Part shown: positions 27,084 to 44,888 of the stretch, one piece after another
Position numbering within the stretch: position 1 is the first letter of the stretch
How the letters are laid out: the number at the start of each line of letters is the position of its first letter
From: an uncultured Opitutia bacterium
GTDB taxonomy: Bacteria; Verrucomicrobiota; Verrucomicrobiia; Opitutales; Opitutaceae
Length of the DNA: 44,888 nucleotides
Reading direction: 5' to 3'
Assembly: GCA_903830425.1 (NCBI GenBank)
Contig: CAIKTR010000028.1
Coordinates: 1 to 44,888 of the forward strand
Position numbers and translations under genes: made by a program
Notes under the pieces: model-generated
Told to the model about the DNA's origin: nothing
Databases searched by the model: none
The model's input: the letters and a program-made list of their open reading frames with translations, nothing else

Positions 27084-27683
27084 ATGAAGCTCTCGAAAAA
27101 AGGCGAATACGCGCTGCGGTCTCTGATCAATCTCGGCATTGCGGCTGAGGTAGGCCGTTCCTTGGTGCAGGTCACGGAACTGGCCGACACCGAGCAGCTC
27201 CCGATTAAGTTTCTGGAGCAGATCATGTCGGCGCTGAAGGAAGCCGGCCTGGTGATCAGCGCCCGGGGAAAGTTCGGCGGCTACCGCTTGGCCAAACCGG
27301 CCAAGCGCATCACCATTGGGGAGGTAGTCCGACTCATTGATGGCCCGCTGGCGCCGCTCGGCTGCGTCAGCCAGACCGCGTACCAAAAATGCACCTGCCC
27401 CGATGAGGCGCACTGTGGATTGCGGATGCTGATGCTGGATGTACGCAACGCCATCTCGGGCATTCTCGACCGCTACACGCTGGCGGACGTGGTTGAAGTC
27501 ACGCTCCGCAAGCTGCGCCGGGACAATGTCCCGCTGCCCTTTTCCCCCGAGGCGGAGCACGCGGCCACACCGCTGCGCGTCCCTGCCCGGCATGCCCGCA
27601 AAAATGCCCGTCAAGCCGGAGTCTCCCGCCTCGATGAGACCGAGGGAGTGCTCCACCAACTGCTCGGCGACTACGCCATATAA
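27084..27683 (+). CDS. Rrf2-family transcriptional regulator with Fe-S-type cysteines
   Basis: The 199-residue protein is longer than most members (130-165). Residues 1-70 form the winged-helix DNA-binding domain (MKLSKKGEYALRSLINL, then GLVISARGKFGGYRLAKP). A dimerisation helix follows. Cys94, Cys103, Cys105 and Cys111 lie in the loop that holds the iron-sulfur cluster in IscR and related sensors, so it may sense cluster, sulfur or redox state. The last 45 residues are basic and extra. It heads a run of sulfate uptake and cysteine synthesis genes. In Bacillus the Rrf2 protein CymR controls such genes and binds CysK, so a sulfur-regulator role is likely, though CymR lacks a cluster. It could instead be an IscR-like general regulator. 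Confidence 0.9.
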   Translation: MKLSKKGEYALRSLINLGIAAEVGRSLVQVTELADTEQLPIKFLEQIMSALKEAGLVISARGKFGGYRLAKPAKRITIGEVVRLIDGPLAPLGCVSQTAYQKCTCPDEAHCGLRMLMLDVRNAISGILDRYTLADVVEVTLRKLRRDNVPLPFSPEAEHAATPLRVPARHARKNARQAGVSRLDETEGVLHQLLGDYAI

Positions 27684-27693
27684 TCACCCCACC

Positions 27694-27885
27694 ATGTCCC
27701 AACTAGCAAATCCCTCGCCTGCTCCGTCATCGGTTCCCGACTGGGTAGCGATCACCCGTGAGAAAGTTGAGAGCCTGCGTTTCGGCGTGGTGCAACTGCT
27801 CGTGCATGACGGCCGTGTGACACAAATCGAGCGCACGGAGAAAACGCGCCTGCCGTCCTACCCAGATACGCCGGTTGTCCGCTGA
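27694..27885 (+). CDS. Small DUF2292 / YezD-like protein
   Basis: The 63-residue protein has the family core REKVESLRFGVVQLLVHDGRVTQIERTEKTRL, the single DUF2292 unit, at about residues 22-54. Family members are small, cytoplasmic and of unknown function, and in many bacteria they lie beside sulfate or cysteine genes, as here. It starts 10 bp after the Rrf2 gene, with C-rich sequence caccccacc before ATG, and 102 bp before the sulfate-binding protein gene. It probably belongs to the sulfur unit, perhaps in regulation or cofactor handling, but no biochemical role is known to me. Confidence 0.85.
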   Translation: MSQLANPSPAPSSVPDWVAITREKVESLRFGVVQLLVHDGRVTQIERTEKTRLPSYPDTPVVR

Positions 27886-27987
27886 CCCATCTTGCGACCG
27901 CCGCATGGTCGGTGGTCTCTCGAATCACCCACCCCCACCTGCGTCCTGAATTTCAGTTCGTCCACGCCCTCTCCGATTTTTTCCGTC

Positions 27988-28986
27988 ATGAAAGTTAAAC
28001 CTCTTCTCTTGGGCGTTCTGGCCTTGGCTGCCAGTGCCGGTGCCTCAGCCAAGACGGTCGAACTGCTCAACGTCTCCTACGACCCCACCCGCGAGTTGTA
28101 CGTCGAGTACAACCGGGCGTTCGCCCGCTACTGGAAGGCCAAGACCGGCGATGACGTTACGGTCAAGCAGTCGCACGGCGGCTCGGGTAAGCAGGCCCGG
28201 GGCGTCATCGATGGCCTCCCGGCGGATGTGGTCACGCTCGCGCTGGCGGCGGACATCGATGCCATTTGCGAGCACAGCCAGCAACTGCCCAAGCAGTGGC
28301 AGCAGTTGCTGCCGAACAACTCGGCCCCCTATACGAGCACCATCGTTTTCCTCGTCCGCCAGGGCAACCCGAAGGGCATCCGGGACTGGGACGACCTCGT
28401 GAAGCCGGGCGTCAGCGTCATCACGCCGAATCCGAAGACCTCCGGCGGCGCGAGGTGGAACTATCTGGCCGCCTGGGCCTACGCCCGGCGCAAGCTGGGC
28501 GGGGACGCCGCCGCCCAGGAGTTTGTGGCCAAACTGCTGAAGAACGTCCCGGTGCTGGACTCCGGAGCGCGCGGTTCAACCACGACCTTCGTGCAACGCG
28601 AAATCGGCGATGTGGCGATCTCCTGGGAAAACGAAGCGTTTCTCGTCCAGAAGGAGTTTGGCGCGGACAAATATGAGATCGTGGTGCCGTCACTCAGTAT
28701 TCTGGCCGAACCGCCGGTGGCCGTGGTCGACCGGGTGGTCAGGAAAAAAGGCACCGCCGAGGTTGCCCAGGCATACCTCCAGTATCTGTATTCCGAGGAA
28801 GGGCAGGACATCGCCGGCCGCCATTTTTACCGCCCGCGCAATCCGACCATTGCGGCCAAGTATGCCAAAAAGCTGCCGCCGCTCGAACTCGTCACGATCG
28901 ATGCCGAATTCGGCGGCTGGGCCAAGGCGCAGAAAACGCATTTCGCCGATGGCGGCACCTTCGACCAGGTCTATCTGAACAAATAG
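27988..28986 (+). CDS. sbp: Periplasmic sulfate/thiosulfate-binding protein
   Basis: The 332-residue solute receptor delivers sulfate to the CysTWA importer. A Sec signal peptide ([20 protein letters not shown]) precedes [21 protein letters not shown], the usual mature start. Typical sulfate-binding segments follow: [42 protein letters not shown] and SWENEAFL. The C-terminus has [13 protein letters not shown]. Length matches Sbp and CysP; sulfate versus thiosulfate cannot be told from the sequence. The genes for the permeases and ATPase lie 1.8 kb downstream, with two M14-like genes inserted between. Confidence 0.95.
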
Positions 28987-29045
28987 CCGCCGCCACAGGG
29001 TGCGGGCCCTCGTGGTTCGCGCCCGGCCACACCTCCCTGCACCCC

Positions 29046-29873
29046 ATGCCCCTCCCACACGCGACCATGAGCCCGTTACCCTCCCGCCAGGCAGCGTTGG
29101 CGCCGGAGCGGGCGCCGGTCCCCGTCCCGCCGGATTCGATTACCGCGCAGCTCAGCGCGCTCTATGAAGTGGCGCAGAAAAATGGTCATGTGTTTGCCTC
29201 GCCTCTCGGACTGTTCGAATCCGGCAGCGGGCCCGGCCACCTGCCGCGGTTCGTGTTCTTTGGCCCTCATGCCACCGATGAATCCTGGCGGCTCGCCTTT
29301 CTGGCCGGGTTTGACCGGCAGGAGTTGCGGGCCAGCCGGGCGCTGCTGCAACTGCTCCAGACTTTGGCCGACCACGCGGAGGCCGGGCATGGCCTCAACC
29401 TCACGTTCTTTCCGCTCATCGACGTTGCCCGCTTGCTCCCGGGGGCCGCGCCGCGCCGGCTGGATCAGGCGCACTGGGCGCAGTCCACGGCCCCGGAGAT
29501 TGAACTCCTGGAAAGGGACGCCCGGCTCCGTGGCTATCACGGCTTTGTCCGGGTGGTGTCCACCACGGATGACGACGACCTCGTCTCCGTACGGGTGCGG
29601 GCCCCGGCGAATTTTCCGCTCTCGCCCGACGTGGAACTGATTTCGTCCGAGGAAACCGCGCCGTTGCCAGTGCGGTTTGAGCGCGCGGCCTCGCATGCGG
29701 TCGCCGGCGGCCCGCTGACCATTGCGGACGACCTGCTGGTCCAGCCGTTCGAGCTCACGTTGGGCATTCCGGCCGCCTGGCCCGACGACCGTTATCAGGC
29801 CGCCGTGGTGGCCATCCTCACCCGCTTCATCATCCGCTACCGTGCCTTGCAGGCCTACGGTCAGCATCTCTGA
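29046..29873 (+). CDS. M14 carboxypeptidase-like pseudoenzyme (zinc ligands lost)
   Basis: The 275-residue protein has the same fold plan as the M14 peptidase two genes on: LPRFVFFGPHATDESWRLAFLAGFD matches LPRFVFHGPDTGMPPIRLGLFALVH in the neighbour. All catalytic positions differ. HGDE becomes FDRQ, the Asn/Arg substrate-binding stretch is replaced, the third zinc His is Val, and the catalytic Glu in FETP is Gly (LGIP). It is thus probably an inactive paralogue that arose by duplication and may pair with the active enzyme. It has no signal peptide. ATG 29067 is an alternative start. It lies 59 bp after sbp in the same direction. Naming the fold rests on the alignment to the neighbour, done by eye. 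Confidence 0.7.
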   Translation: MPLPHATMSPLPSRQAALAPERAPVPVPPDSITAQLSALYEVAQKNGHVFASPLGLFESGSGPGHLPRFVFFGPHATDESWRLAFLAGFDRQELRASRALLQLLQTLADHAEAGHGLNLTFFPLIDVARLLPGAAPRRLDQAHWAQSTAPEIELLERDARLRGYHGFVRVVSTTDDDDLVSVRVRAPANFPLSPDVELISSEETAPLPVRFERAASHAVAGGPLTIADDLLVQPFELTLGIPAAWPDDRYQAAVVAILTRFIIRYRALQAYGQHL

Positions 29874-29917
29874 AGCCGTCATGGACTTTCCCAGTCACGA
29901 TCCGTCTCCTGCGCCGA

Positions 29918-29935
29918 ACCAGACACGGGTCTGGT
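29918..29935 (+). other. Small hairpin between the two M14-like genes
   Basis: ACCAGAC (29918-29924) and GTCTGGT (29929-29935) form a 7-bp stem with loop ACGG; partial pairing extends it by a few bases. There is no T-run, so it is not an intrinsic terminator. It may stabilise or process the operon mRNA. Confidence 0.4.
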
Positions 29936-29966
29936 CGGGCGAATGAGCTGACTCGGCCGCGCCCCC

Positions 29967-30773
29967 ATGGTCATGCTCAACACGTCCGACCCCGCCTCGC
30001 CGCAGCGGCTGCGCCGCCTGTGCGGGCCGTTCCTGACGTTGGCCGAAGAGTGCCCGGAGGTGGTGGGCACCGTCGCGGGATCGTTTGAGGTGGGGGACCG
30101 GCACTACCTGCTGCCGCGCTTCGTTTTTCATGGCCCGGACACGGGCATGCCGCCGATCCGCCTGGGGCTGTTTGCCCTGGTGCACGGCGACGAGCCCGCC
30201 GGGGCGCTGGCGCTCCAGCACCTGCTGCGCCGGCTGGTCGCACAGCCCGGCCTGGCCCGGGGCTATGAGCTGTGGTTTTACCCGCTGTGTAACCCCACTG
30301 GCTACGAGGACGGCACCCGCCACAACCGCGCGGGCTTTGATCTCAATCGCGAATTCTGGCGCGACTCCGCCCAGCCGGAGATCCGGATTCTGGAGGAGGA
30401 GTTGCGTACCCAGCAGTTTGACGGGGTCATCGCGCTGCATGCGGACGACACCAGTGACGGCCTGTACGGGTACACCCAGGGCCGGGTGTTGAATGAGAAC
30501 CTGCTGGTTCCCGCGCTCCGCGCCTCCGCCCAGATCCTGCCCGTCAACACCCGTGCCATCATCGACGGGTTTACGGCCCGCGCGGGCCTGATTGACGACT
30601 GTTACTCGGGCGTGCTGGCACCTCCGCCCGGCCAGCGGCCGCGGCCGTTCGAGATCATTTTCGAGACGCCGGCGGCGGCGCCGCTGACCCAACAGGCCGA
30701 AGCTACCTGTTGCGCGCTGGAATCCGTGCTCACAGAGTACCGGGGCTTTATCGCCCAAGGAGCCAACCTGTGA
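29967..30773 (+). CDS. M14-family zinc carboxypeptidase / deacylase
   Basis: The 268-residue protein has a complete zinc site: HGDEPAG near residues 73-79 (His and Glu ligands), NPTGYEDGTRHNRAGFDLNREFW with the Asn-Arg substrate pair, LHADD with the third ligand His, and FETP with the catalytic Glu. This is the AstE/aspartoacylase-like or short carboxypeptidase branch of M14, which hydrolyses an amide bond at a C-terminal or N-acyl amino acid. It has no signal peptide, so it is probably cytoplasmic. Its stop overlaps the GTG start of cysT, so it is firmly in the sulfate operon. The natural substrate is unknown; a sulfur-containing peptide or N-acyl-amino acid would fit the context but is speculation. 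ATG 29973 is an alternative start. Confidence 0.85.
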   Translation: MVMLNTSDPASPQRLRRLCGPFLTLAEECPEVVGTVAGSFEVGDRHYLLPRFVFHGPDTGMPPIRLGLFALVHGDEPAGALALQHLLRRLVAQPGLARGYELWFYPLCNPTGYEDGTRHNRAGFDLNREFWRDSAQPEIRILEEELRTQQFDGVIALHADDTSDGLYGYTQGRVLNENLLVPALRASAQILPVNTRAIIDGFTARAGLIDDCYSGVLAPPPGQRPRPFEIIFETPAAAPLTQQAEATCCALESVLTEYRGFIAQGANL

Positions 30774-31615
30774 GCCTCGCCGTCCCCGTCCCCCAATCCC
30801 CGCGCCGCGTCCTGCCCGGCTTTGGGCTCTCGCTCGGGTTCACCCTAGCCTATCTCGGATTGATCGTGCTGATTCCGCTCGCCGCGGCGTTTTTGAAGAC
30901 CGCCGGCATGAGCTGGGACGAATTCACCGCGGCGGTCGCCGCGCCCCGCGTGCTGGCGTCCTATCGGCTGAGCTTTTTCGCGTCGTTCGCGGCGGGTCTG
31001 GTCAACATCTTCTTCGGGCTGATCGTGGCCTGGGTGCTGGTGCGGTATGCGTTTCCCGGCCGGCGGATCGTGGACGCGCTGGTGGACCTGCCGTTCGCCC
31101 TGCCGACGGCCGTGGCGGGCATCGCGCTGACCGCGATCTATGCCAAGAACGGCTGGGTGGGGCAGTGGCTCGAGCCGCTCGGCATCAAGGTGGCCTTCAC
31201 CGAGATCGGCGTGTTTGTGGCGCTGACCTTCATCGGCCTGCCCTTTGTGGTCCGCACCCTGCAGCCGGTCCTGCTGGAACTGGAACCCGAGATTGAGGAG
31301 GCCGCCGCGAGCCTGGGGGCGAACCGGTGGGAGACGATCACCCGCGTGATCCTGCCCGAGCTGTTTCCCGCGATGCTGACCGGCTTTGCGCTGGCCTTCG
31401 CCCGGGCGCTCGGGGAATACGGCTCGGTCGTCTTCATCTCGGGCAACATGCCCATGCGGACCGAGATCACCCCCCTGCTCATCATCACCAAGCTGGAGCA
31501 GTATGACTACCGCGGGGCCACGGCCATCGCGGTGGTGATGCTGGTCACGTCGTTCCTGCTGCTGCTGCTCATCAACCTGCTCCAGAAATGGAGCCGTCGG
31601 TACCACCGGATCTGA
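30770..31615 (+). CDS. cysT: Sulfate ABC transporter permease CysT
   Basis: The 281-residue inner-membrane protein has about six membrane spans, starting with FTLAYLGLIVLIPLAAAFL. It carries the ABC permease EAA loop (EEAAASLGANRWETITRVILPELFPA) that docks to the ATPase. FARALGEYGSVVFISGNMPMRTEITPLLI near the end is diagnostic of CysT (CysU). The GTG start at 30770 overlaps the previous stop (GTGA); an upstream ATG in frame at 30710 lies inside the M14 gene and is not used. It pairs with CysW, which starts 2 bp after its stop. Confidence 0.95.
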   Translation: MSLAVPVPQSPRRVLPGFGLSLGFTLAYLGLIVLIPLAAAFLKTAGMSWDEFTAAVAAPRVLASYRLSFFASFAAGLVNIFFGLIVAWVLVRYAFPGRRIVDALVDLPFALPTAVAGIALTAIYAKNGWVGQWLEPLGIKVAFTEIGVFVALTFIGLPFVVRTLQPVLLELEPEIEEAAASLGANRWETITRVILPELFPAMLTGFALAFARALGEYGSVVFISGNMPMRTEITPLLIITKLEQYDYRGATAIAVVMLVTSFLLLLLINLLQKWSRRYHRI

Positions 31616-31617
31616 CC

Positions 31618-32499
31618 ATGGCCGCCGTTTTTGCCCGGGCCCTTGCCACCTCGCCGCATGCCGCCGGCCCCGCTCCGCGCGCCACGCAGGATCCGGCGTG
31701 GGTGCGCTGGACGCTCACGGCGGTGGCGCTGCTGTTCCTGCTGTTTTTCCTCGTGCTGCCGTTGGCGGCGGTTTTCACCGAGGCGCTGCGACGCGGGCTG
31801 GGGGCGTATTTCGCCGCCTTCCGCGACCCGGCCGCTCTGGCCTCGATCAAGCTCACCCTGATTGCGGCGGGCATTGCGGTGCCCGCCAATCTGGTCTTCG
31901 GCGTGGCCGCGGCCTGGCTGATCGCCAAATTCAAGTTCCGCGGCAAGAGCGTGCTCACCACGCTCATCGACCTGCCCTTTGCCGTTTCCCCGGTCATCTC
32001 CGGCCTCATCTACGTGCTCGTCTTCGGCCTGCAGGGCTGGTGGGGGGAGTGGCTCCTGGCGCACAACCTCACGGTCATCTTTGCCGTGCCGGGCATCGTG
32101 CTGGCGACGATGTTCGTGACGTTTCCGTTTGTGGCGCGGGAGCTGATCCCGCTGATGCAGGCGCAGGGCGCGGACGAGGAATACGCGGCCATCACGCTGG
32201 GGGCGAACGGCTGGCAGACCTTCTGGCGGGTCACCCTGCCGAACATCAAGTGGGGCCTGCTCTACGGTGTCATCCTGTGCAACGCCCGGGCGATGGGCGA
32301 GTTCGGCGCGGTCTCGGTCGTCAGCGGCCACATCCGGGGCGAGACGAACACGATGCCCCTGCACGTCGAGATCCTCTACAACGAGTACAACTTCGTCGCG
32401 GCCTTCGCCGTGGCCTCGCTGCTGGCCCTGCTGGCCATCGTCACCCTGGTGCTGAAGGCCCTCGTCGAATGGCGCCATGCCCAGAGCCGGACGCTCTGA
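31618..32499 (+). CDS. cysW: Sulfate ABC transporter permease CysW
   Basis: The 293-residue second channel subunit has a 35-residue Ala/Pro-rich cytoplasmic leader, then spans beginning with [21 protein letters not shown]. The EAA loop reads [21 protein letters not shown], and the CysW-specific stretch [31 protein letters not shown] follows. ATG 31618 is preferred to in-frame ATG 31588, which lies inside cysT. It forms the membrane channel with CysT and is powered by CysA, encoded 7 bp downstream. Confidence 0.95.
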
Positions 32500-32506
32500 T
32501 CCTCCC

Positions 32507-33541
32507 ATGAGCATCAACGTGACCAACATTCACAAGACCTTCGGGGCCTTCACGGCGCTCGATGGCGTGGACCTGACCGTGCCGCGGGGCAAGCTCGTGG
32601 CGCTGCTGGGCCCGTCGGGCTCGGGCAAGACGACCCTCCTGCGGATCATCGCGGGGCTGGACCACGCGGACGCGGGGAGCGGCCGGATCGAGTTCCACGG
32701 CGAGGATGTGACCCGGGTGCGCGCCGGCCGCCGCAAGGTGGGATTTGTGTTCCAGCACTACGCGCTGTTCCGGCACATGACGGTGCTGGAGAACATCGCT
32801 TTCGGCCTGCGGGTCCGCCCGCGGCGCGAACGGCCCGCCGCCGGAGAGATTCTCGACCGGGTGCACCGGCTGCTCAAGCTGGTGCAGCTGGAGGGCCTGG
32901 ACGCCCGCTATCCCAACCAGCTGTCCGGCGGGCAGCGGCAGCGCGTGGCGCTCGCGCGGGCGCTGGCGGTCGAGCCCAAGGTGCTGCTGCTGGACGAGCC
33001 GTTTGGGGCGCTCGACGCCAAGGTGCGCAAGGAACTCCGCCGCTGGCTGCGGCGCTTCCATGACGAGATCCAGCTGACGACGCTGTTTGTGACGCATGAC
33101 CAGGAGGAGGCGCTCGAGATCGCCGACGAGGTCGTGATCATGAACCAGGCGAAGATCGAGCAGGTGGGGACGCCCCAGGAGGTGTATGACCGCCCCGCGA
33201 CGCCGTTTGTCTATCAGTTTCTCGGCAACGTGAACGTGCTGCGCGGACAGGTGCTGGAGCAGGTGGGCGCCCCGCGCGACCGGCCGGGGACGCTGGTCGC
33301 GGACGGCCTGATTTATGTGCGGCCCCACGACATCGAGCTGGCGGCCTACGTGCCCGGCGCGGGCGGGGCGGCGGCCGTCGTCCGCTATCTCCATCTGGCC
33401 GGACCGCAGGCGCGCCTGTCGGTCGAGCTGGTCCAAACCCACGAAAATGTGGAGGTGGAGGTCTCCCGCACCGAGCTCGCCGGCCTCGGCCTGGCCGTGG
33501 GCGACGTGGTTCGCCTGCGCCTGCGGCAGGGGCACGCGTGA
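32507..33541 (+). CDS. cysA: Sulfate ABC transporter ATPase CysA
   Basis: The 344-residue ATPase drives sulfate import. The N-terminal ABC domain carries Walker [10 protein letters not shown] near residues 35-43, the signature [15 protein letters not shown], Walker [17 protein letters not shown] and the switch THDQEEALE. The C-terminal part (about 235-344) is the TOBE-type regulatory domain with [16 protein letters not shown], typical for CysA. ATG 32507 fits the conserved start ([13 protein letters not shown]). It completes the sbp-cysT-cysW-cysA importer. cysK begins 52 bp downstream. Confidence 0.96.
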
Positions 33542-33593
33542 GCGGACGGCGCGGCGATCTAGATTTTCCCAACTGCTATCAACCCAAACTGAC

Positions 33594-34580
33594 ATGGCCA
33601 AAATCCACAACGACATCACCGAGACCATCGGCAACACGCCCCTGGTCCGCCTCAACCGAACCGCCGCCGCCCACGGGGCGCAGGCGGAGATCCTCCTCAA
33701 GCTCGAGTTCTTCAATCCGCTGTCGAGCGTCAAGGACCGCATCGGCTTCGCGATGATCGACGACGCGCTGAAGAGCGGCAAAATCAACGCGAGCACCATC
33801 CTGATCGAGCCGACCAGCGGCAACACCGGCATTGCCCTCGCGTTTGTCGCCGCCGCCAAGGGCCTCCGGCTCATCCTCACCATGCCGGAGACAATGAGCA
33901 CCGAGCGCCGCAAGCTGCTCAAGATCCTGGGTGCCCGGCTGGTCCTGACCGAGGGACCGAAGGGCATGAAGGGCGCGATCGCCAAGGCCGAGGAGCTGCA
34001 GGCCAAGATTCCGAACAGCGTCATCCTGCAGCAGTTCGCCAACCCGGCGAATCCCGCCGTCCACCGCCGGACGACGGCCGAGGAAATCTGGCGCGATACC
34101 GACGGCAAGGTGGACATCCTGGTCTCCGGCATCGGCACGGGCGGGACCATCACGGGCGTGGGCGAGGCCCTGAAGGCCAAAAACCCCTTGATCAAAATCG
34201 TCGCCTTGGAGCCCGATGCCTCCCCCGTCCTCTCCGGCGGCGCCCCGGGGCCGCACAAGATCCAGGGCATTGGCGCGGGCTTTGTGCCGGCGGTGCTCAA
34301 CACCAAGATCTACGACGAGATCATCCGCGTGAAGGAGGCCGACTCCGGCCCGGTGTCCAAGCAGGTCAACCAGCTGGACGGCATCCCGATCGGCATCTCG
34401 TCCGGGGCGGCCGTCTGGGCGGCCCTCCAGCTCGCCAAGCGCCCGGAAAACAAGGGCAAGCAGATCGTCGCGATCATCCCGTCGAGCAGCGAGCGCTACC
34501 TCTCCACGTGGCTGTTTGCCGACGTGAGCCCGGAGAGCGATTCGCTGGACGATCTGTTCGTCCCGCCCGCGGCCACCTGA
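33594..34580 (+). CDS. cysK: Cysteine synthase A (O-acetylserine sulfhydrylase)
   Basis: The 328-residue pyridoxal-phosphate enzyme joins sulfide to O-acetylserine to give cysteine. Lys47 in NPLSSVKDR is the cofactor lysine. PTSGNTG at 73-79 binds the substrate carboxylate, and [14 protein letters not shown] anchors the phosphate. [15 protein letters not shown] near the C-terminus is typical of CysK. The length fits the family. The leader is C-rich (caacccaaactgac) without a ribosome-binding site. It closes the sulfur operon and faces the convergent hox operon. No genes for sulfate reduction (cysD, cysN, cysH, cysI) are in the window. Confidence 0.97.
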
Positions 34581-34700: not shown

Positions 34701-35180
34701 CTAGGGCCGGCGCGCACCGGCCAGCTTCATCCGGGCGAGCCGGGAAATCTTTTCGACCGCGCGGGCGATGCCCCGGCGGGTGACTGGCGAAAGCTCGGTG
34801 CCGAAGCCGAACTGCACCGCGGGAACGGTGAGCAGCCACCCCGGAGGGGTGCGCCCGTAGACATCGCGCGCCAGCGCCAGGAGGGTGCGCGGCTCGGCCG
34901 CGTGGGTGGTCACCTGCGAGGATTCGCCGGGCCGGACCCGCCGGAGCCGGGGTTCCTGGTCCGGGCCGGCCTGGGCATCGACAAACACGACACCGCGGGA
35001 CTGCGCCACGGCCTCGGCGTGCTCGGGCGAGAGCTGCGGGCTCACCAGCGTGACGACGCCGGGCAGGCTTGCGGCCTCGATCTCCTCCGCGACGGCGGGC
35101 CCGGCCTGGTCGTCCTGCCGCAGCGTGTTGCCGTAACCGATGACCAGCAGTGCGGCAGGGGTGGCGGCCGGGGGGGGCAT
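34701..35180 (-). CDS. hoxW: Hydrogenase maturation protease HoxW (M52 family)
   Basis: The 159-residue endopeptidase removes the C-terminal tail of the hydrogenase large subunit after nickel is inserted. It opens with LLVIGYGNTLRQDDQAGPAVAEEI, the M52 motif in which the Asp/Glu residues bind nickel. FVDAQAG contains a second conserved Asp, and THAAEPRTLLALA the third ligand, a His. The C-terminus is basic. It starts 9 bp after the hoxH stop on the same strand, and hoxH still encodes a tail to be cut, so the pair is consistent. No hyp genes for cofactor assembly are in the window; they must lie elsewhere. Confidence 0.92.
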   Translation of the reverse strand: MPPPAATPAALLVIGYGNTLRQDDQAGPAVAEEIEAASLPGVVTLVSPQLSPEHAEAVAQSRGVVFVDAQAGPDQEPRLRRVRPGESSQVTTHAAEPRTLLALARDVYGRTPPGWLLTVPAVQFGFGTELSPVTRRGIARAVEKISRLARMKLAGARRP

Positions 35181-35189
35181 GACGGGGTC

Positions 35190-36614
35190 TCAGTCGCGCC
35201 GCACCTCGTGCAGCACGCGGCCATCCGGGGCGATCATGCGCACCAGAAGTGCCATGCGGCCGGCGGCGTGGGTGGAGCAGCTCAGGCAGGGGTCGTAGCA
35301 GCGGATGCCGTGCTCGATCCGGTTGAGCATGGCCTCGGTGATTTCCGGGCCGCGGGCGAAATGCTGGGCGATCTGCGCCACCGTGCGGTTCATCGCGAGG
35401 TTGTTCTGGCCCGTGGCGACGATGAGGTTCACCTTCTGCAGGAGCCCGTTGCGGTCGACGGTGTAGTCGTGGAAGAGCGTGCCGCGCGGGGCCTCGCTGG
35501 CCCCCACGCCGCGCAGGCTGTTGATGCCGGCGTCGGCGCGCAGGTCCTGGCTGAACAAGTCCGCGTCATCCAGGTAGCGCTCGATCCATTCCAGCGAAGC
35601 CAGAATCTCGATCAGCCGGGCATAGTGGTAGAGGAAGGACGAGGTCACGGCGCCGTGGCCGAAGCTCTTGAAGTTCTTCAGCTCGGCGTCCGCCTGCGAG
35701 ACCCCCATGTGGGTGCAGATGTTGAGCCGGGCGAGGGGCCCGACCCGGTATACGCCGTCGGTGGAGCCGAGCGGCAGGTAATACGGCGACTTGAGGTAGG
35801 AGTTGTCCTGCACCGACTCGCCGATGACGCTGAGGTAGTCCTTGGGCGCGATCTGGTCGGCGATGATGCTGCCGCTGCTGTCCATGAAGCGCAGGTTGCC
35901 GCCATGGTGCTCCCAGCCGCCGTCGGCGGCGACCAGGCCCATGAAGAGGGAGGGAAAGTTCCCGTAGAGCTGCACCTCGTGCTGGTGGGTGGAGAGCACG
36001 CGCTTGAACAGGTCGAGGGCGGTGCGGGTGGTGGCGAAGGCCTCGGGCAGCCAGGCGCGGATCTTCTCGGCCCCTTCCTTGCTCAGCGGGCTGCGCACGC
36101 CGCCGGGCACGGCCCAGGCCGGGTGGATCTTCCGGGCGCCGAGCACCTCGATGATTTCCTGGCCAAACTGCCGCAGCCGGATCCCCGCGCGGGCGAGGTC
36201 GGCATGATTCGCGATCAGCCCGAAGACGTTGCGCTGGGCGGCCGGGGAGTCCCAGCCCAGCAGGAAGTCGGGCGCGCTGAGGTGGAAGAAGCTCAGCGCG
36301 TGGCTTTGCACGAGCTGGCCAAGGTTCATCAGCCGGCGCAGCTTGTCGGCGGCCACCGGGATGTTCACCGCCATGATCGCATCGCCAGCCTTGGCGGAAG
36401 CGAGCAGGTGGCTCACCGGGCAAATGCCGCAGATGCGCGGCGTGATCCCGGGCATCTCCGTATAGGGGCGGCCCTCGCAGAACTTCTCAAAGCCCCTGAA
36501 TTCAACGACATGGAACTCGGCGCCGGATACATTTCCGGCGTCGTCCACAAAGACGCTGATTTTGGCGTGGCCTTCAATGCGGGTGACCGGGTCGATGACA
36601 ATGCGCTGGGACAT
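35190..36614 (-). CDS. hoxH: NAD-linked [NiFe] hydrogenase large subunit HoxH
   Basis: The 474-residue subunit holds the Ni-Fe active site that splits or makes H2. The L1 motif [10 protein letters not shown] gives Cys62 and Cys65, and the C-terminal L2 motif DPCLSCSTH gives Cys443 and Cys446. All four nickel ligands are present. A 25-residue tail follows His449 and would be removed by HoxW. N-terminal [16 protein letters not shown] is typical. The HoxEFUYH set places it in group 3d, bidirectional hydrogenases that link H2 to NAD(H) in the cytoplasm. It follows hoxY by 12 bp. Confidence 0.97.
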
Positions 36615-36626
36615 AGGAAGCGGGGT

Positions 36627-37175
36627 TCAGCCGAATTTGATCTGGCGGCCAGAGAGCTGGGGCGTGGTGCCGGCCAGGACCTGGGTCAGGAAGGCTTTGA
36701 TGTTGGCGGCCGCGGGAGGGCAGCCGGGCAGGAAGTATTCCACCGCCACGACCTCGTGCACGGGCATGACGCGGGGGAGCAGGGCAGGCACGATGCCCGC
36801 GGTCGAGGGCCGCCGCGGGTTCTCCTGGGCGTGCTCGATGTAGGCGCACTGCAGCACGTTCGCCACGTTGTCGGGGCCGAGCTGGTTGCGCATGGCGGGA
36901 ACGTTGCCGGTCACGGCGCAGTCCCCGAACGACACCAGCACCTTCGTCCGCGCGCGGATTTTGTGCAGGAGCTCGAGGTTGTCCTCGTTGCAGATCGCAC
37001 CCTCGATCAGGCAGAGATCCACGTTTTCCGGATACTCCTTGCAGTCGATGATCGGGCTGTAGACCAGGTCGACCAGGCCGGCGAGATCGATGAGGAATTC
37101 GTCGAGGTCGAGGAACGACATGTGGCAGCCGGCGCAGCCGCCGAACCAGACCGTGGCAATTTTTAGACGCTCCAT
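36627..37175 (-). CDS. hoxY: NAD-linked [NiFe] hydrogenase small subunit HoxY
   Basis: The 182-residue subunit carries the proximal [4Fe-4S] cluster that passes electrons between HoxH and the diaphorase part. Its ligands are Cys14 and Cys17 in WFGGCAGCHMS, Cys86 in FGDCAVTG and Cys152 in FLPGCPPAA. It is short, as in other cytoplasmic group 3 enzymes, and has no twin-arginine signal. ATG at 37175 (reverse strand) is the family start, and the gene overlaps the end of hoxU by 13 nt, which indicates translational coupling. Longer in-frame reading to 37733 lies inside hoxU and is not coding. Confidence 0.96.
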   Translation of the reverse strand: MERLKIATVWFGGCAGCHMSFLDLDEFLIDLAGLVDLVYSPIIDCKEYPENVDLCLIEGAICNEDNLELLHKIRARTKVLVSFGDCAVTGNVPAMRNQLGPDNVANVLQCAYIEHAQENPRRPSTAGIVPALLPRVMPVHEVVAVEYFLPGCPPAAANIKAFLTQVLAGTTPQLSGRQIKFG

Positions 37176-37879
37176 TGTTTTTTCTCCCGGGCGTTGACGA
37201 TGAACTCGAGTTTCGAGCGATCGTGTTGCATTTCGGAAACGGTGGAACCCTTGGCGGAGAGGGCGCCGGTGGGGCAGGCGCTGACGCACTTGCCGCAGGC
37301 GGTGCAGGTCTCGGAGTTTCCCCAGGGCTCGTTGAGATCGGTGATGATCATCGATTTGCCGCCGCGGCCGGCGACATTCTTGGTGCCGGCGCCCTCGATG
37401 TGCCAGCAGGCGCGGACGCAGCGGGTGCAGAGGATGCAGCGATTGTGATCCATGCCGAAGAGGCGGTGGGTGGCGTCGACGCCCCATTTCGGCGAGCAGT
37501 AGTCGTAGCGCACGTGGTCCATGCCCAGGCTGTAGGCCAGGGTCTGCAGTTCGCAGTGGCCGTTGGACACGCAAACGGCGCACACATGGTTGCGCTCGGC
37601 GAAGAGGAGCTCGAGGGTCATGCGGCGGTACTTCCGCAGCCGCTCGCTGTCGGTCGCGACCTCCATGCCCTCGTAGACCCGCGTGGTGCAGGCGGGCAGG
37701 AGCTTGGCCGTGCCCTTGACCTCCACCAGGCAAAGGCGGCAGGCGCCCACGTCGTAGACGCCCTCGAGGTGGCAGAGGGTGGGGATTTTCACTCCGGCCT
37801 CCGTGGCGGCTTGCAGCACGGTGATGTGGTTTTCGGCACTGATCTGGGTGCCGTCGATGGTAAGGGTTTTCGCAGCCAT
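37163..37879 (-). CDS. hoxU: NAD-linked hydrogenase diaphorase small subunit HoxU
   Basis: The 238-residue electron-transfer subunit resembles the N-terminal part of complex I NuoG. An N-terminal [2Fe-2S] ferredoxin domain (CHLEGVYDVGACRLCLVEV, with a further Cys in PACTTRV) is followed by the His-Cys3 [4Fe-4S] segment (HVCAVCVSNGHCELQ) and a two-cluster ferredoxin domain (CILCTRCVRACW and CTACGKCVSACPTG). It relays electrons between HoxF and HoxY. It starts 15 bp after the hoxF stop, and its last 13 nt overlap hoxY. Confidence 0.96.
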   Translation of the reverse strand: MAAKTLTIDGTQISAENHITVLQAATEAGVKIPTLCHLEGVYDVGACRLCLVEVKGTAKLLPACTTRVYEGMEVATDSERLRKYRRMTLELLFAERNHVCAVCVSNGHCELQTLAYSLGMDHVRYDYCSPKWGVDATHRLFGMDHNRCILCTRCVRACWHIEGAGTKNVAGRGGKSMIITDLNEPWGNSETCTACGKCVSACPTGALSAKGSTVSEMQHDRSKLEFIVNAREKKQWSV

Positions 37880-37894
37880 AAGCGTCCGGGGTGG

Positions 37895-39541
37895 TTAGTT
37901 CGCCGCGGTCAGGGGCGGAACAGGGGTGGCAGGGGTGCGCGGGCCATGGGGATCAGGCTGGAGCAACTCCTCGTATTCGTGGCGGAAGAAACGGAGCGTG
38001 CTGAGCACGGGGTTGGGCGCGGTCTGGCCGAGGCCGCAGAGGCTGGTGTTTTTGACCATGTCGCAGAGCTCCTCGAGCTTGGCGAGGTCGCGGGCGGTGG
38101 CCTGGCGGGCGAGGATCTTCTCCAGCAGGTGGTGCATCTGCACGGTGCCGGCGCGGCAGGGGATGCACTTGCCGCAGGACTCATCCATGCAGAATTCCAT
38201 GAAGAACCGGGCCACATCGACCATGCGCGTGGTCTCGTCCATGACGATCATACCGCCCGAGCCCATGATGGAGCCCAGCTTGGTCAGGGACTCGTAGTCC
38301 ACGGGGGTGTCGAGGTGCTGCCGGGGGATGCAGCCGCCGGACGGCCCGCCGGTTTGCACGGCCTTGATCCGACCGCCGTCGGGGGCTCCGCCGCCCATGT
38401 GCTCGACGATGGTGCTGAGCGGGGTGCCCATCGGCACCTCGATCAGGCCGGTATTCTGGATCTTGCCCGCCAGGGCGAAGACCTTGGTGCCCTTGCTTTT
38501 TTCCGTGCCGATGCCGGCAAACCAGTCGGCGCCGCGGCGCAGGATCGGCGCAATGTTGGCAAAGGTCTCGACGTTGTTGATCAGGGTGGGGCAGTCCCAG
38601 AGGCCGCGCTCGGCCGGGAAGGGCGGGCGGGGGCGCGGGGTGCCGCGCTTGCCCTCGACCGAGGCCATCAGGGCCGTCTCCTCGCCGCACACGAAGGCGC
38701 CGGCGCCGATGCGGATGTCGATGGTGAAGTTGAACGGGGACTCAAAGATGCCGCTGCCCAGCAGGCCCACCCGCTTGGCTTGGCGAATGGCGTTGTGCAG
38801 CCGGCTGATGGCCAGGGGATACTCGGCGCGCACATAGATGAAGCCCTGGTCCGCGCCGACGGCGTAGGCGGCGATCGCCATGCCCTCGAGGATGCTGTGC
38901 GGGTCGCTCTCCAGGACGCTGCGGTCCATGAATGCGCCCGGGTCGCCTTCATCGGCGTTGCAGATGATGTATTTCTTGACCCCGGGGGACTTCGCCACCG
39001 TGCCCCACTTCAGCCCGGTGGGGAAACCGGCGCCGCCGCGGCCCCGCAGCCCGCTTTTAACGATGGTGTCCACCACATCCTTGGGGGTCATCTCGACCAG
39101 CACCTCATGCAGCGCCTGATAGCCGTCTGCGGCGATGTAGGCCTCGATGCGCTCGGGATCGATCACGCCGCAGTTCGTGAGCACAATCGACTGCTGCAGG
39201 GTGAAGAACGGTGAGTGGGGATCGGCCTGGGCCAGGGTGGACCGTCCGCCCTTGAGGGCGGCGACGATGGCCGGCGCATTGTCCGGGGTCACCTTCACAT
39301 ACAGGGCGTCCGACGGATCGGCCTGCACAAGCGGTCCCTCGCAGCAGAGCTTCATGCAGCCCACGCCGCGCACCTCGACCTCGTTCTGGAGGCCGGCCTC
39401 GGCGACGGCCTTTTCCAGCCGCTCCTTCACGCCCTTGGAGTCCGACGACGTGCAGCCGGCCGCCTGACAGCAGCGCAGGACAATTTTCTTTCGGGCGGCG
39501 ATTTCCGCCTCCTTGGTTTGATGCAGATCGTTAAGGGTCAT
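37895..39541 (-). CDS. hoxF: NAD-linked hydrogenase diaphorase large subunit HoxF
   Basis: The 548-residue subunit binds FMN and NAD(H). It begins with a thioredoxin-like [2Fe-2S] domain ([11 protein letters not shown] and [12 protein letters not shown]). [13 protein letters not shown] (FMN/NADH loop), [13 protein letters not shown] and [13 protein letters not shown] follow as in NuoF. C-terminal [10 protein letters not shown] and CGLGQ bind a [4Fe-4S] cluster. It exchanges electrons with NAD. ATG 39541 overlaps the hoxE stop (ATGA); the further upstream ATG at 39553 is possible but inside hoxE. No extra C-terminal ferredoxin domain is present. Confidence 0.96.
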
Positions 39542-40065
39542 GGTGTCACCCACTGGTTGATTTGGGCCAAAGCGGATTCCGGCGACTGGCGCGGTGTGAC
39601 GGTGCCGTCGTAGACGACGGCCGGGGCGATGCCGCAGGCGCCGATGCAGCGCGCGGTGAGGAGGGAGACCTGGTTGTCGGGGGTGGTCTCCCCAGCCTTG
39701 ATGTGCAGCTGCTGCTCCACCGCCGCCAGCACGCGGTTGGCGCCCTTCACGTAGCAGGCGGTGCCGAGGCAGACGACGCAGGTGTGCGCCCCCTGCGGCT
39801 TGAGGGTGAAGAAATGGTAGAAGGTGGCCACGCCGTAGACGCGGCTGGCCGGCAGCTTGAGCTGGGCGGCGACGTAGCGGAGGACGTCATCCTCGAGGTA
39901 GCCGAAGAGCTCCTGGGCCTTGTGCAGCACCTCGATCAGGGCATCGTGCCGGTGCTGGAACTTCTTGATGTGCGCCTCGAGGATCTTGAAGCGCTTGTCG
40001 CCTGCGGCCTGCGGCAGGTAGCGGGCGGCGATCCGGGGCTTTTCGGGTGAGGGCGGGAGGGCCAT
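39538..40065 (-). CDS. hoxE: NAD-linked hydrogenase diaphorase subunit HoxE
   Basis: The 175-residue NuoE-like subunit has one [2Fe-2S] cluster with ligands Cys99 and Cys104 (CLGTAC) and Cys140 and Cys144 (CIGAC), plus an extra Cys at 96. The N-terminal helical part contains [24 protein letters not shown]. It is the first gene of the hox operon, so a five-subunit HoxEFUYH enzyme is encoded. The presence of HoxE is typical of the cyanobacterial-type branch of group 3d enzymes. Its promoter must lie in the 330 bp upstream. Confidence 0.95.
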
Positions 40066-40397: not shown

Positions 40398-40442
40398 AAA
40401 AAACTAACCGGCCACGGGCACCTTTCGGTGCACCGTGGCCGG
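40398..40442 (-). terminator. Intrinsic terminator of the cytochrome/beta-barrel operon
   Basis: CCGGCCACGGGCACC (40408-40422) pairs with GGTGCACCGTGGCCGG (40427-40442) with one bulged base and loop TTTC. On the - strand the stem is followed by a T-run (AAAAAA at 40398-40403 on the + strand). It lies 31 bp after the beta-barrel gene stop and insulates the hox operon from it. Confidence 0.92.
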
Positions 40443-40473
40443 TGTTTATTGGGATAACTAAACTGACGGAGTC

Positions 40474-42639
40474 TTACAGGGCGTAGGTCAGGGAGACGTA
40501 GGCCTGCGGACCATGGAAGTTGGTCTTGCCGCCGGTCGTGTCGTTCGCGCTGTCGAAGTAACCGACCTTGGCATCGCCAACCACCCGATCCGAGAACTTG
40601 TGCTTCAGGCCGACGGTCACCGAGGTCTCCTCGACCATCATCCCGTAGGGGACGGTCCAGGCGGCCAGGGCGACATCGCTGTTGTCGGCCTTGTAGTAGT
40701 TGAACTGGATCTGGAGGTCGTCCGCCGCGGAGAGCGTCGTGCCGCACAGCAGCGTCATGGTGACGTAGTCGTTCTTGGCATCCTGCAGCACCTTGTTGGC
40801 GTCCCACGCGATATTCGTCACTGTTGCGGCCACCGTGCCGGCCCGCGGATAGACCGTGTTGATGTTGTTGAACACGAAGTTCACGTTCGCCTGGGCGTAG
40901 AACTGCTGGTTGGGATTCCAGTCGATCGTCTCAGAGATCGTGTGGTTGATCGTGTTGCCCGCGGGATACTCGGGGAAGGCCGGCAGATAACCGGTCACCG
41001 AGGACTGACCCGACTGGTAGATGTACCGCGTGGTGGAGGTGATCATGTCCGTCGGCTTGACGACCGACGTGACCTTCCAGCCCGTGAAGTTGTAGTCGAG
41101 ATTGTAGAAATCCGCGGCCCGGGCGCCATAGCCCACGTAGCCGTTCTGGTGGCTCTTCTGGAACATCTCAACCCGGGTGGTGAGGAACGTGGAGGGCTTC
41201 CAGTTCGCACCGACCGTGTAGTTGCCATGGGCCTCGGAGATGTTGTTGAGGGCGTTCGTGCCGCTGATGGCGGTGAGCGGGTTGAAGGCCGAGGTGTTCT
41301 TCTCCTGGCCCGTGACCGACGCCTTGCTGTAGTTGGCGTAGATCGTCACGTCCCGGAAGCCGGTGTAGCGCACGCCGACCTCGGGGGTCGTGATCTTCTC
41401 CATGCCGTGCGACCAGCCGCTGCGGGGGGTCGTGGCCACCGTGGTGGCGGGGGTGCCGCTGGCGGCCGAGGCATTGAAAGCCACATCGCTGCGGAGGTAC
41501 TCCTCCTGGCGCTTCACCGCGAAGTTCAAGGACCAATCCTTGCTCGGGGCGTAGGTCAGCGAGGTGTTGCCCGCGTAGGACAGGATGCGGGAACCGCCGA
41601 CCAGACCCTGATAGTTGAAGGTGTTGATCGGAATCACACCTGTGGCCGTCGGGGTCTGCGTGACGAGGGAGCGGTCGCCGCTCAGGTCGGCATGAACGAG
41701 TTCGTAGATCAGGCCGCACTTGAGGGTGAGCTGGTCGTTGAACTTGGTCTCCGTGGTGAACGTGGAGATGGTGGCCTTGGAGTCGATGCCATCGCCCTGG
41801 ACGTAGGAGATCTGGTTGTTCATCTGCGCCGCCGGCATGAGCAGGGTGGAAGCCGGGCTCGGGAAGGGCTTGGCCTCACCGGGGAAGCGGGTGACGAACC
41901 GGGTGTCGAAGTTCTTGATCTGCTCGCCCAGCAGCGTGAGCTGCAGGGTCGTGTTGCCGATCGTGTGCTTCGCGGTGAACTCAAGGCTCTGCGACTCTTC
42001 GTCCAGCTTGATGTAGCTGGGGACGATTTTGCGGACCTGCGAGATCGGGGGGTTGTTGTTCGGCAGACCGGTGAAGTCGGTGTCACCCCAGATCGTGGAG
42101 TCCTTCTTGCCCTCGCGCTTCTCGTTCGCGTAGCGGAGCGTGAAGACCGGGGCATTCGGCAACGCGATCGTGGCCTCGGCCCACAGCTTGCTGCGGTCCA
42201 CATGCAGGTCGCGATTCGTCAGGGGCTGCCAATTCCCGTTGAGCGGGAAGAAGCCGCCGATGCCGTCATAGAACGTGCGGAAGCTCTTGTAGCCGATGTC
42301 GGCTGAACCGAACTCGTTCTTGGTGAGCTTGATCTGGCCGAGGTAGTCCTCAGAGCCAGTCAGGGCGCGTCCATTGATCTCGGTGGTGGTTTCCTTCGAT
42401 TCCTTGATGTAATGAAGGTCCTCGATGCCAATGCCGCCGCTCTTGGACTGCTGCATGCGGCGTTGGTAGGCGCTTTCGTCGCCATTGATGGACGGCGCTT
42501 GGCCGGTGACCTTGATGTAGCTCTCGAAGGTCGGGAAGGCATCGGCGGCGACCGCCTTATCCGATCCGCGGACCGTGAGGGCCGTGAGGGCCGCCAGCAG
42601 GCTGGCGCCCCGGACGATGGTGGAGAATTTTGCTTTCAT
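40474..42639 (-). CDS. Outer-membrane beta-barrel protein, probable MtrB/PioB type
   Basis: This is 721 residues from ATG 42639 (MKAKFSTIVRG). A longer frame to 42798 lies in the preceding cytochrome gene. A signal peptide ends around AVAA-DAF. The remainder is a chain of amphipathic strands with alternating aromatic residues, such as DYLGQIKLTKNEFGSADIGYKSFRTFYDG, YVTMTLLCGTTLSAADDLQIQFNYYK and the closing AYVSLTYAL, as in large porins. In Shewanella and relatives, MtrB/PioB barrels sheath a multihaem MtrA cytochrome. This gene follows such a cytochrome by 19 bp, which is the main reason for the name. The N-terminal CXXC seen in some MtrB proteins is absent. A plain porin is the alternative. 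Confidence 0.75.
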   Translation of the reverse strand: MKAKFSTIVRGASLLAALTALTVRGSDKAVAADAFPTFESYIKVTGQAPSINGDESAYQRRMQQSKSGGIGIEDLHYIKESKETTTEINGRALTGSEDYLGQIKLTKNEFGSADIGYKSFRTFYDGIGGFFPLNGNWQPLTNRDLHVDRSKLWAEATIALPNAPVFTLRYANEKREGKKDSTIWGDTDFTGLPNNNPPISQVRKIVPSYIKLDEESQSLEFTAKHTIGNTTLQLTLLGEQIKNFDTRFVTRFPGEAKPFPSPASTLLMPAAQMNNQISYVQGDGIDSKATISTFTTETKFNDQLTLKCGLIYELVHADLSGDRSLVTQTPTATGVIPINTFNYQGLVGGSRILSYAGNTSLTYAPSKDWSLNFAVKRQEEYLRSDVAFNASAASGTPATTVATTPRSGWSHGMEKITTPEVGVRYTGFRDVTIYANYSKASVTGQEKNTSAFNPLTAISGTNALNNISEAHGNYTVGANWKPSTFLTTRVEMFQKSHQNGYVGYGARAADFYNLDYNFTGWKVTSVVKPTDMITSTTRYIYQSGQSSVTGYLPAFPEYPAGNTINHTISETIDWNPNQQFYAQANVNFVFNNINTVYPRAGTVAATVTNIAWDANKVLQDAKNDYVTMTLLCGTTLSAADDLQIQFNYYKADNSDVALAAWTVPYGMMVEETSVTVGLKHKFSDRVVGDAKVGYFDSANDTTGGKTNFHGPQAYVSLTYAL

Positions 42640-42658
42640 GTCTGGTAAGGGTCGGGGG

Positions 42659-43459
42659 TCAGTAGCGGAAGTGGTAGCTGGCGTTGGATCCGTGGGGAGC
42701 CTCGTGGCAGCCGGCGCTCCAGCAGGTACCCTGCATGAGGCGCGAGTTATGATTTTCAGTGGTCGAGCGGATCGAGTTGGCGTTGATTTCGCCCGCATTC
42801 GGAACCGACGGCGTCTCCAGGTGGCAGCGCAGGCAGAGGTTGGCGTCGCGGGCGACCAGCATCTTGGCGTTCACGGAACCGTGCGGGTTGTGGCAGGCCG
42901 TGCAGCCTTCCTTCATCGCGCCGTGCTCGTAGACGAACGGACCCTTCTGGGCCGTATGGCACTTGGTGCAGGTGGCGACCTCGTTCTCGAGCGCCGCGCC
43001 CGTGCCCTTGACCGCCGTGCTCTCGTGGACGTCATGGCAGTCCACGCAGCTGACCTTGCCGGCCAGCACCGGGTGGCTGTTCGGGAGATTGAACTGGCCC
43101 TGCTTGTCCGTATGGCACTGGAAGCAGGCCTCGGGGGACTTGCCGGGGTTCACGATCGAACCCTTGCCGCCGCCCGCGGCGACGTGGATGCTGCCCGGGC
43201 CGTGGCAGGATTCGCAGCTCGTGTCACCGAGCTTGGAGTCCGCCACCGCGACCTTGGCGTGGGTCGAGGAGCCGAAATGACCGGTGACCTCCTCATGGCA
43301 TTGGGTGCACTCCTTGGTGCCGACATAAGAAGCTCCCGCAATTTTCGGCGGAGCGACGACGGTGCGATTCACCATCACGCAGGAGATGAGCAGCAGGCCC
43401 CAGGCCGCGGCTCCTCCGAAGATGAGGGTTTGTTTGGTCCAGTTTAGGCGCATTTTCAT
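42659..43459 (-). CDS. Octahaem c-type cytochrome lipoprotein of MtrA/DmsE type
   Basis: This is 266 residues. An N-terminal hydrophobic segment ends in the lipobox LISC (Cys27), so it is probably a lipoprotein. Seven CXXCH haem sites lie at residues 51, 82, 112, 138, 164, 186 and 209, and an eighth unusual site CWSAGCH (CX4CH) at 246-252. The repeats CTQCHEEVTGHFGSSTHAKV, CESCHGPGS and ACHNPHGS are typical of the MtrA/DmsE family, whose members usually have ten haems. It should carry electrons through the periplasm into the barrel encoded next. ATG 43453 is an alternative start. Cytochrome maturation genes are not in the window. Confidence 0.9.
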   Translation of the reverse strand: MKMRLNWTKQTLIFGGAAAWGLLLISCVMVNRTVVAPPKIAGASYVGTKECTQCHEEVTGHFGSSTHAKVAVADSKLGDTSCESCHGPGSIHVAAGGGKGSIVNPGKSPEACFQCHTDKQGQFNLPNSHPVLAGKVSCVDCHDVHESTAVKGTGAALENEVATCTKCHTAQKGPFVYEHGAMKEGCTACHNPHGSVNAKMLVARDANLCLRCHLETPSVPNAGEINANSIRSTTENHNSRLMQGTCWSAGCHEAPHGSNASYHFRY

Positions 43460-43658: not shown

Positions 43659-44888
43659 TTACGGGGTCTTTTCCGCCGGGACTGCGCGGGAGCCGCCGCG
43701 CCAGCCGCCCCGGGCCTTGGTGAAGACCAGGGACACGGCCAGCAGCACGGTGCCGAGCACCAGGAAGCTGATGATGCGGTAGGTGGGGGCGAGCTGGGTG
43801 ACGCCGACGACCACAACGTAGAGCACGGTGAGCAGCAGGGTGAGATGGCCCATCCAGCGGTACTTCACGTTGCGCACCACGAGATTCATCAGGTAATAGA
43901 CGACGGCCACGCCGATCCACGAGACGCTGACGTAGACGCGCGGGACCAGATGGTACAGCGCGTAGGGGAACACGACGAAGGCGCAGGCGAGGTACGCGTT
44001 GCGCATGAGGCCGGTCCGCAGCTCCAGCCGCTCGCTTTTCCAGTTCAGGATGCGCGCTGTGAGCAGGGCCACGACGCCGAACCCGAGGCTGACTCCCGCC
44101 TCCCGGTCGGTCGTGATCATGTAGCCGAGCACCACCGTCACGAAGATCAGGAAGTTGGCCACCACGATGAAGCGGGAGCGGAACCACAGGGCGGTGGCGA
44201 CGACCAGCAGGCTCTGGAGCGAGAGCCACATGAAGACGTCGGGCGCGGCAAACGCCTTCAGGATGGCCACGCTCAGGGCCAGATAGCCGGTCATGGCGTA
44301 GAAGAAGGTCGACACGCGGCTTTCCTCCCGCCGCCAGAAGGCCATGGCCAGCCCGAGGAACACCAGGGTGGCGACCAGGTTGGCCGGCACGAGGTCCTGG
44401 GGGAACCGCAGGAGGCTGTGCAGGAGGAACAGCCCGTAGCCGGCGCCGCAGTTGAAGATCGCGGTCAGGATGGTCAGCTGGTCCTCGGATGACCGGTTGC
44501 GGCGCAGCAGGGGGCCGATGCCGATGATCACGGCATAGAGGAGCAGGAAATAGACGCTGCCGGCCGGGGTGGAGACGACGAGCAACGGGCGGCCGGCCCA
44601 GGGGTTGCCGATCATCCAGAGCAGGTGCGCGAGATAGCTGAACGGGATGGCCAGCAGCAGCAGGGCGGGGGCGCTCCGGCGGTTGGCGGCCGCGGCGATC
44701 AGGCCCGAGAGCAGGGTGACGCCGGCGAACAGCCACCCGGGGGAATTGGGCACCACGGCCGTCACATAGCCCGTCAACAGGGCCAGCACCACCAAGGCGC
44801 CCGAGCTCTGCCGCAGGGCCACCACGAGGTTGAGCGCGACCGCGGCGAGCAGGACGGTCCGGCTCAGGCCGGAGTCGATGCTGAGCAC
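43659..44888 (-). CDS. Multi-spanning membrane protein of unknown function, 5' end outside the window
   Basis: This frame gives 409 residues up to the window edge; it begins with a GTG at the last base triplet, which may be internal. It has at least ten hydrophobic spans, for example TVLLAAVALNLVVAL, LLLLAIPFSYLAHLLWM, VYFLLLYAVIIGIGPLL, LTLLLTVLYVVVVGV and IISFLVLGTVLLAVSLVF, with short basic loops such as LLRRNRSS and FWRREESR. The C-terminal tail is cytoplasmic-type and basic. I recognise no transporter or enzyme motif; a DUF2339-like integral membrane protein is one possibility. It lies upstream of the cytochrome gene in the same direction, but the 199-bp gap with the palindrome suggests separate transcription. 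Confidence 0.8.
   Translation of the reverse strand: MLSIDSGLSRTVLLAAVALNLVVALRQSSGALVVLALLTGYVTAVVPNSPGWLFAGVTLLSGLIAAAANRRSAPALLLLAIPFSYLAHLLWMIGNPWAGRPLLVVSTPAGSVYFLLLYAVIIGIGPLLRRNRSSEDQLTILTAIFNCGAGYGLFLLHSLLRFPQDLVPANLVATLVFLGLAMAFWRREESRVSTFFYAMTGYLALSVAILKAFAAPDVFMWLSLQSLLVVATALWFRSRFIVVANFLIFVTVVLGYMITTDREAGVSLGFGVVALLTARILNWKSERLELRTGLMRNAYLACAFVVFPYALYHLVPRVYVSVSWIGVAVVYYLMNLVVRNVKYRWMGHLTLLLTVLYVVVVGVTQLAPTYRIISFLVLGTVLLAVSLVFTKARGGWRGGSRAVPAEKTP

Follow-up and report, generated by a model that had tools for sequence, protein, structure and literature searches.

The region analysed here, called the window, is a stretch of 44,888 nucleotides from an uncultured Opitutia bacterium (genome G000), and corresponds to the whole of contig C28. 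Two adjacent minus-strand genes, encoding a multihaem cytochrome and a putative outer-membrane barrel, lie between a set of hydrogenase genes and the contig end. The features are as follows.

34701..40065, minus strand: hoxEFUYH and a maturation protease, a neighbour judged to lie outside the conduit system
about 40398..40443, minus strand: predicted intrinsic terminator, ending the cytochrome-barrel transcript ahead of hoxE (sequence and fold; end points set by eye from the sequence)
40474..42639, minus strand: putative MtrB-type outer-membrane beta-barrel, 721 aa, 26 predicted strands (model, fold match, hhalign)
42659..43459, minus strand: octahaem c-type cytochrome lipoprotein, MtrA-type (haem motifs, profile and structure-sequence matches)
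43659..44888, minus strand: 3' part of a DUF2339 membrane protein, cut at the contig end, the rest being on contig C141
44748..44888, no strand: 141-bp contig-end overlap with G000:C141:23369-23509, joining the conduit locus to a hydrogenase/ImcH/CbcL cluster

A preliminary description of this DNA had reported an octahaem lipoprotein cytochrome followed by a 721-aa barrel, and ORFs, sizes, order, lipobox and haem count are as described. It had set the cytochrome apart for its eight haems and lipid anchor, as borne out by the eight motifs and the lipobox. The strong terminator it had placed between the barrel and the same-strand hoxEFUYH genes is recovered by folding of the barrel-hoxE gap (region dG -43 kcal/mol, z -5.2). 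Further along the window, a plus-strand cluster at 27084-34580 (Rrf2 regulator, solute-binding protein, two permeases, ATPase and cysteine-synthase-like ORF) resembles a sulfate uptake and cysteine synthesis set.

The cytochrome measures 266 aa, and features seven CXXCH motifs and one CXXXXCH motif (CWSAGCH), the latter being the last haem site, plus a lipobox (LLIS-C27). The lipobox cysteine and the CX4CH motif are invariant in 15 close homologues. The protein matches the MtrA structure 6r2q_A with E values of 1e-28 (single sequence) and 5.8e-40 (profile); entry 6r2q is named as the Mtr complex in the fold search, the molecule name printed for chain A being wrong. The top NCBIfam match is the GSU2203 family (8e-50), and the DmsE family (TIGR03508) is matched at 2e-44, both below the curated cut-offs. 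On these alignments, the cytochrome is a homologue of MtrA, DmsE and GSU2203. MtrA haems 1, 2 and 5–10 are present, and haems 3 and 4 missing, in all 42 aligned octahaem homologues, while all ten haems are found in 55/55 aligned decahaem homologues, which come from other phyla; exceptions to this pattern may exist, since only the best 80 relatives, out of at least 248, were sampled. Within the same best 80, octahaem cytochromes come from Verrucomicrobiota, from one record labelled only as bacterium (L077) and from one member of the Omnitrophota (L088), decahaem ones from Acidobacteriota, Nitrospirota, and deltaproteobacterial and proteobacterial records. One ORF from Planctomycetota, with 22 haem motifs (L119), was disregarded. 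An N-terminal truncation is rejected as the origin of the eight haems, because the absent haems 3 and 4 are internal. The AlphaFold model of the cytochrome alone, built without haems, has a pLDDT of 39, too low for use.

The barrel gene starts at an ATG at 42639, 19 bp past the cytochrome stop. The AlphaFold model, based on 20 homologues, features 26 long strands (pLDDT 78, pTM 0.73). Its top PDB fold match is MtrB (6r2q_B; E 3.9e-13, TM 0.61 on target length), and TonB receptors trail behind (TM 0.36–0.49). Barrels linked to octahaem cytochromes were aligned by hhalign to 27 barrels encoded after decahaem MtrA homologues; 21 of the 27 match PF11854 (MtrB_PioB). The two profiles align end to end, with a score of 290 over 623 columns; decoys scored 59–62 (reversed profiles) and 75–91 (block-shuffled). 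The MtrA-type and MtrB-type assignments of the preliminary description thus hold on the 6r2q_A and 6r2q_B matches and on an hhalign score far over the decoys. The profile searches it had suggested gave a mixed outcome, as DmsE was matched below cut-off by the cytochrome, and the window barrel matched none of the Pfam/NCBIfam models, MtrB/PioB included. Searches of PDB sequences (phmmer, hmmsearch) gave no match to the barrel, and a scan of genome contigs with the barrel alone found no relatives. Weak matches to the GSU2204 family were obtained with five barrels of the wider set. On the basis of the fold model and the profile-profile comparison we take the barrel as a remote MtrB homologue, remote because it matches no MtrB model in Pfam or NCBIfam. 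MtrB-like barrels carrying CXXCH motifs were seen in several Verrucomicrobiota outside Opitutaceae (L077, L078, L080, L081, L086, L087). Six barrels of the aligned set, from other Verrucomicrobiota, carry an additional monohaem domain matching PSCyt1, so that a cytochrome is fused there to the conduit barrel.

Homologous barrels were identified in 20 of the 57 genomes searched. The same cytochrome resides upstream of the barrel in all 19 loci fetched from relatives, and a barrel comes after the octahaem cytochrome in every case where the contig runs on and the start of the gene could be resolved. The pairing is not due to chance. Candidatus Didemnitutus (L070:1238-7895) hosts two tandem octahaem cytochrome-barrel pairs of differing divergence, followed by an ImcH-like gene.

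The window stops at a contig end, and the apparent absence of further genes upstream is therefore an artefact. The true upstream genes are found on contig C141. The 141-bp stretch shared by C28 and C141 is unique in the genome to the ends of these two contigs, and their join restores one DUF2339 ORF of 559 aa, identical to the sister gene at 391/564 aligned positions. An exact overlap of this length would be the expected residue, between adjacent contigs, of an assembly graph with k=141. The DUF2339 gene is syntenic in sister genomes, where its location between the NrfD module and the cytochrome is kept. Towards the conduit, C141 encodes in order hydrogenase small and large subunits and cytochrome b (HyaA/B/C), a protease, an ImcH-like protein, two CbcL-like proteins, a tetrahaem protein, an FeS protein (DsrO-like), NrfD (DsrP, above cut-off), and the DUF2339 protein. 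The order from C141 to the conduit is the same in G010 and G011, on single contigs, and in G009, across a contig break; HyaB lies ~17 kb before the barrel in G010, G011 and the joined G000.

The ImcH-like protein measures 496 aa, and features three N-terminal TM segments, one CX3CH and six CX2CH motifs. The assignment follows the published layout (about 500 aa). The two CbcL-like proteins carry 13 and 11 haems, and a membrane half similar to the formate dehydrogenase gamma subunit. The hydrogenase small subunit is closest to that of the O2-tolerant membrane-bound hydrogenase of Ralstonia (HoxK 5mdj_S, 6e-140), and E. coli Hyd-1 is also found among its best alignments. Both extra proximal-cluster cysteines are present (ECTCC and SGC), at the same positions as in HoxK. 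By sequence, the C141 enzyme appears to be a group-1d-like O2-tolerant [NiFe] hydrogenase. HyaB was found in 11/57 genomes, 9 of which also carry the barrel; the two that do not are G005 and G007, whose contigs stop soon after the ImcH-like or CbcL-like genes. Outside the genus, HyaB was detected only in G026 and G035, on contigs other than that of the barrel. Barrel and ImcH-like gene coexist in 19 of the 57 genomes, the barrel being found alone in 1, ImcH alone in 2, and neither in 35 (Fisher p 6e-12 overall, 2e-7 within the family; the p-values overstate the strength of the association, because related genomes were counted as independent). In Acidobacteriaceae bacterium dw_441, a 10-kb stretch (L089:7462-17433) brings together the large subunit of a group-1-like hydrogenase, an MtrA homologue with ten haems and the 754-aa ORF that follows it, and an ImcH-like gene. 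This may be a hydrogenase-conduit linkage of independent origin, in a different phylum.

Surface cytochromes were searched for in the window's own genome. Nothing scored above cut-off for the OmcA/MtrC family (TIGR03507), in agreement with the outer-surface partner having been reported as missing. The search yielded only the tetrahaem protein of C141, a pentahaem protein on C58, which by reading of its sequence resembles alternative complex III (ACIII), and an eight-haem ORF on C171. In other Verrucomicrobiota (L079, L082, L083), the octahaem gene is immediately preceded by a larger cytochrome ORF (7–9 haems, 566–624 aa), a candidate surface cytochrome; no such ORF is found at the window's locus.

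Homology, predicted fold, haem pattern, synteny and co-occurrence together suggest that the pair is likely a short Mtr-type conduit, and the exit to extracellular acceptors of a quinol-linked respiratory chain encoded by C141. The octahaem lipoprotein would be tethered to the outer membrane on its periplasmic side, and thread through the 26-strand MtrB-type barrel, forming a haem wire across the membrane. Quinol would be made by the group-1d-like hydrogenase, with H2 as donor, and by other dehydrogenases, and be oxidised by the ImcH-like and CbcL-like multihaem cytochromes of the inner membrane. Electrons may then cross the periplasm and reach, through the octahaem wire, humics, Fe(III) or similar acceptors outside the cell. 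A broader reading, that a minimal, lineage-specific Mtr wire of eight haems, devoid of a surface cytochrome, ends one hydrogenase-ImcH/CbcL block and provides Verrucomicrobiota with a self-contained H2-to-outside respiration, is put forward tentatively.

The conduit may work as proposed, and the hydrogenase be an independent O2-linked uptake enzyme which merely resides nearby. This is a serious possibility, if somewhat short of an even chance. The hydrogenase small subunit belongs with those of the O2-tolerant membrane-bound enzymes, which as a rule are linked to aerobic respiration, and the hydrogenase may serve O2 respiration because the genome also has the ACIII-like pentahaem protein. The enzyme is absent from most conduit-bearing genera, and in G001, G003 and G004 it is found 20–23 kb away, outside the compact order. 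Against this, hydrogenase, ImcH-like and CbcL-like genes form a single block oriented in one direction in G000, G010 and G011, and, across contig breaks, in G009 and G007. As the conduit outside the genus usually occurs without a group-1d-like hydrogenase, H2 would be at most one donor among others.

Electrons could run inward instead, with Fe(II) or some other extracellular donor as their source, as in PioAB and MtoAB. Pio and Mto sets similarly lack an outer-surface decahaem partner (PMC6344600), and CbcL/MtoC-type proteins are known from oxidisers too (PMC6295460). ImcH homologues, found with the barrel in 19/20 genomes, have been reported from reducers only (PMC6295460), and an inward flow is deemed unlikely.

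A functional tie between the conduit and the adjoining hoxEFUYH genes, as proposed in the preliminary description, is more improbable still. The two sets are adjacent and on the same strand in one genome, and HoxE and HoxU score above their NCBIfam cut-offs. Hox hydrogenases are cytoplasmic, NAD-linked enzymes. The strong terminator separates barrel and hoxE, and hox and conduit lie apart in G035, G215, G227 and G014, although each has both. Among the 57 relatives, a close HoxH (84% identity) was found in G035 only, on a contig different from that of its barrel. Across 195 genomes of the phylum, the octahaem cytochrome was detected in 14, HoxH in 30, and both in 4, HoxH residing beside the cytochrome only in the window's genome. 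The linkage is rejected on the terminator and on the surveys of both family and phylum, and the hox genes are probably beside the conduit by chance. A supply of electrons from H2 to the conduit is better supported for another enzyme, the group-1d-like hydrogenase of contig C141.

It is hardly credible that an ordinary porin, the case named in advance as refuting the conduit, or a TonB-type receptor lies here beside an unrelated cytochrome: the direct HMM searches gave no match to MtrB, but the cytochrome pairing is constant, MtrB is the best fold match, the profile score is far above the decoys and the model has 26 strands.

The cytochrome-barrel pair is not a discovery, since such pairs have been already reported by He et al. 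2017 (PMC5615132). These authors described in Verrucomicrobia a porin with at least 20 predicted strands, encoded beside a periplasmic eight-haem cytochrome, in the cultured Opitutus terrae PB90-1, further Opitutae and genomes from bogs, suggested humics as the extracellular electron acceptor, and stated no homology to Shewanella/Geobacter systems; the words quinol and hydrogen(ase) are absent from their text. The window pair fits this set, as the porin gene adjoins that of an eight-haem periplasmic cytochrome. With respect to their work, remote homology to MtrAB is shown here, and the upstream chain is added. As in MtrAB, MtoAB and PioAB, an MtrA-type cytochrome is associated with a many-stranded MtrB-type barrel, and MtrC is absent, as in Mto and Pio; the own-genome search found no OmcA/MtrC-family surface cytochrome, a component of MtrCAB. 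In contrast to these systems, the cytochrome features eight haems (3 and 4 missing), a lipid anchor and a CX4CH motif at the last haem, and the barrel scores under the family thresholds. Having eight rather than ten haem motifs, the pair is therefore filed as a variant, not as a canonical MtrAB-type conduit. Geobacter GSU2203 (OmcK)/GSU2204 provides the top NCBIfam family for the cytochrome, but GSU2203 proteins are decahaem, whereas the window cytochrome is octahaem and below the family cut-off, and GSU2204 has a CXXCH motif which the window barrel lacks. The ImcH-like protein fits the Geobacter ImcH layout (3 TM, CX3CH plus six CX2CH). The CbcL-like proteins share with Geobacter CbcL a multihaem N-terminal half and a HydC/FdnI-like membrane half, but carry 11 and 13 haems rather than 9. 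No mtrAB was found beside imcH by Zhong and Shi 2018; here, in contrast, the ImcH-like gene lies in one cluster with an MtrAB-like pair. Verrucomicrobia are not mentioned by Baker et al. 2022, and no description of the hydrogenase-ImcH-CbcL-conduit block was found in the open literature, subscription papers being outside the search.

The porin-cytochrome sets of Verrucomicrobia, described as unrelated to known systems, may thus be viewed as remote MtrAB relatives lacking two haems of the wire, and the octahaem wire bears on the minimum length of a trans-membrane haem wire. Lake and soil Opitutaceae are predicted to be capable of respiration on H2 or sugars with humics or iron as acceptor. If so, such respiration would divert electrons from methanogenesis in anoxic water.
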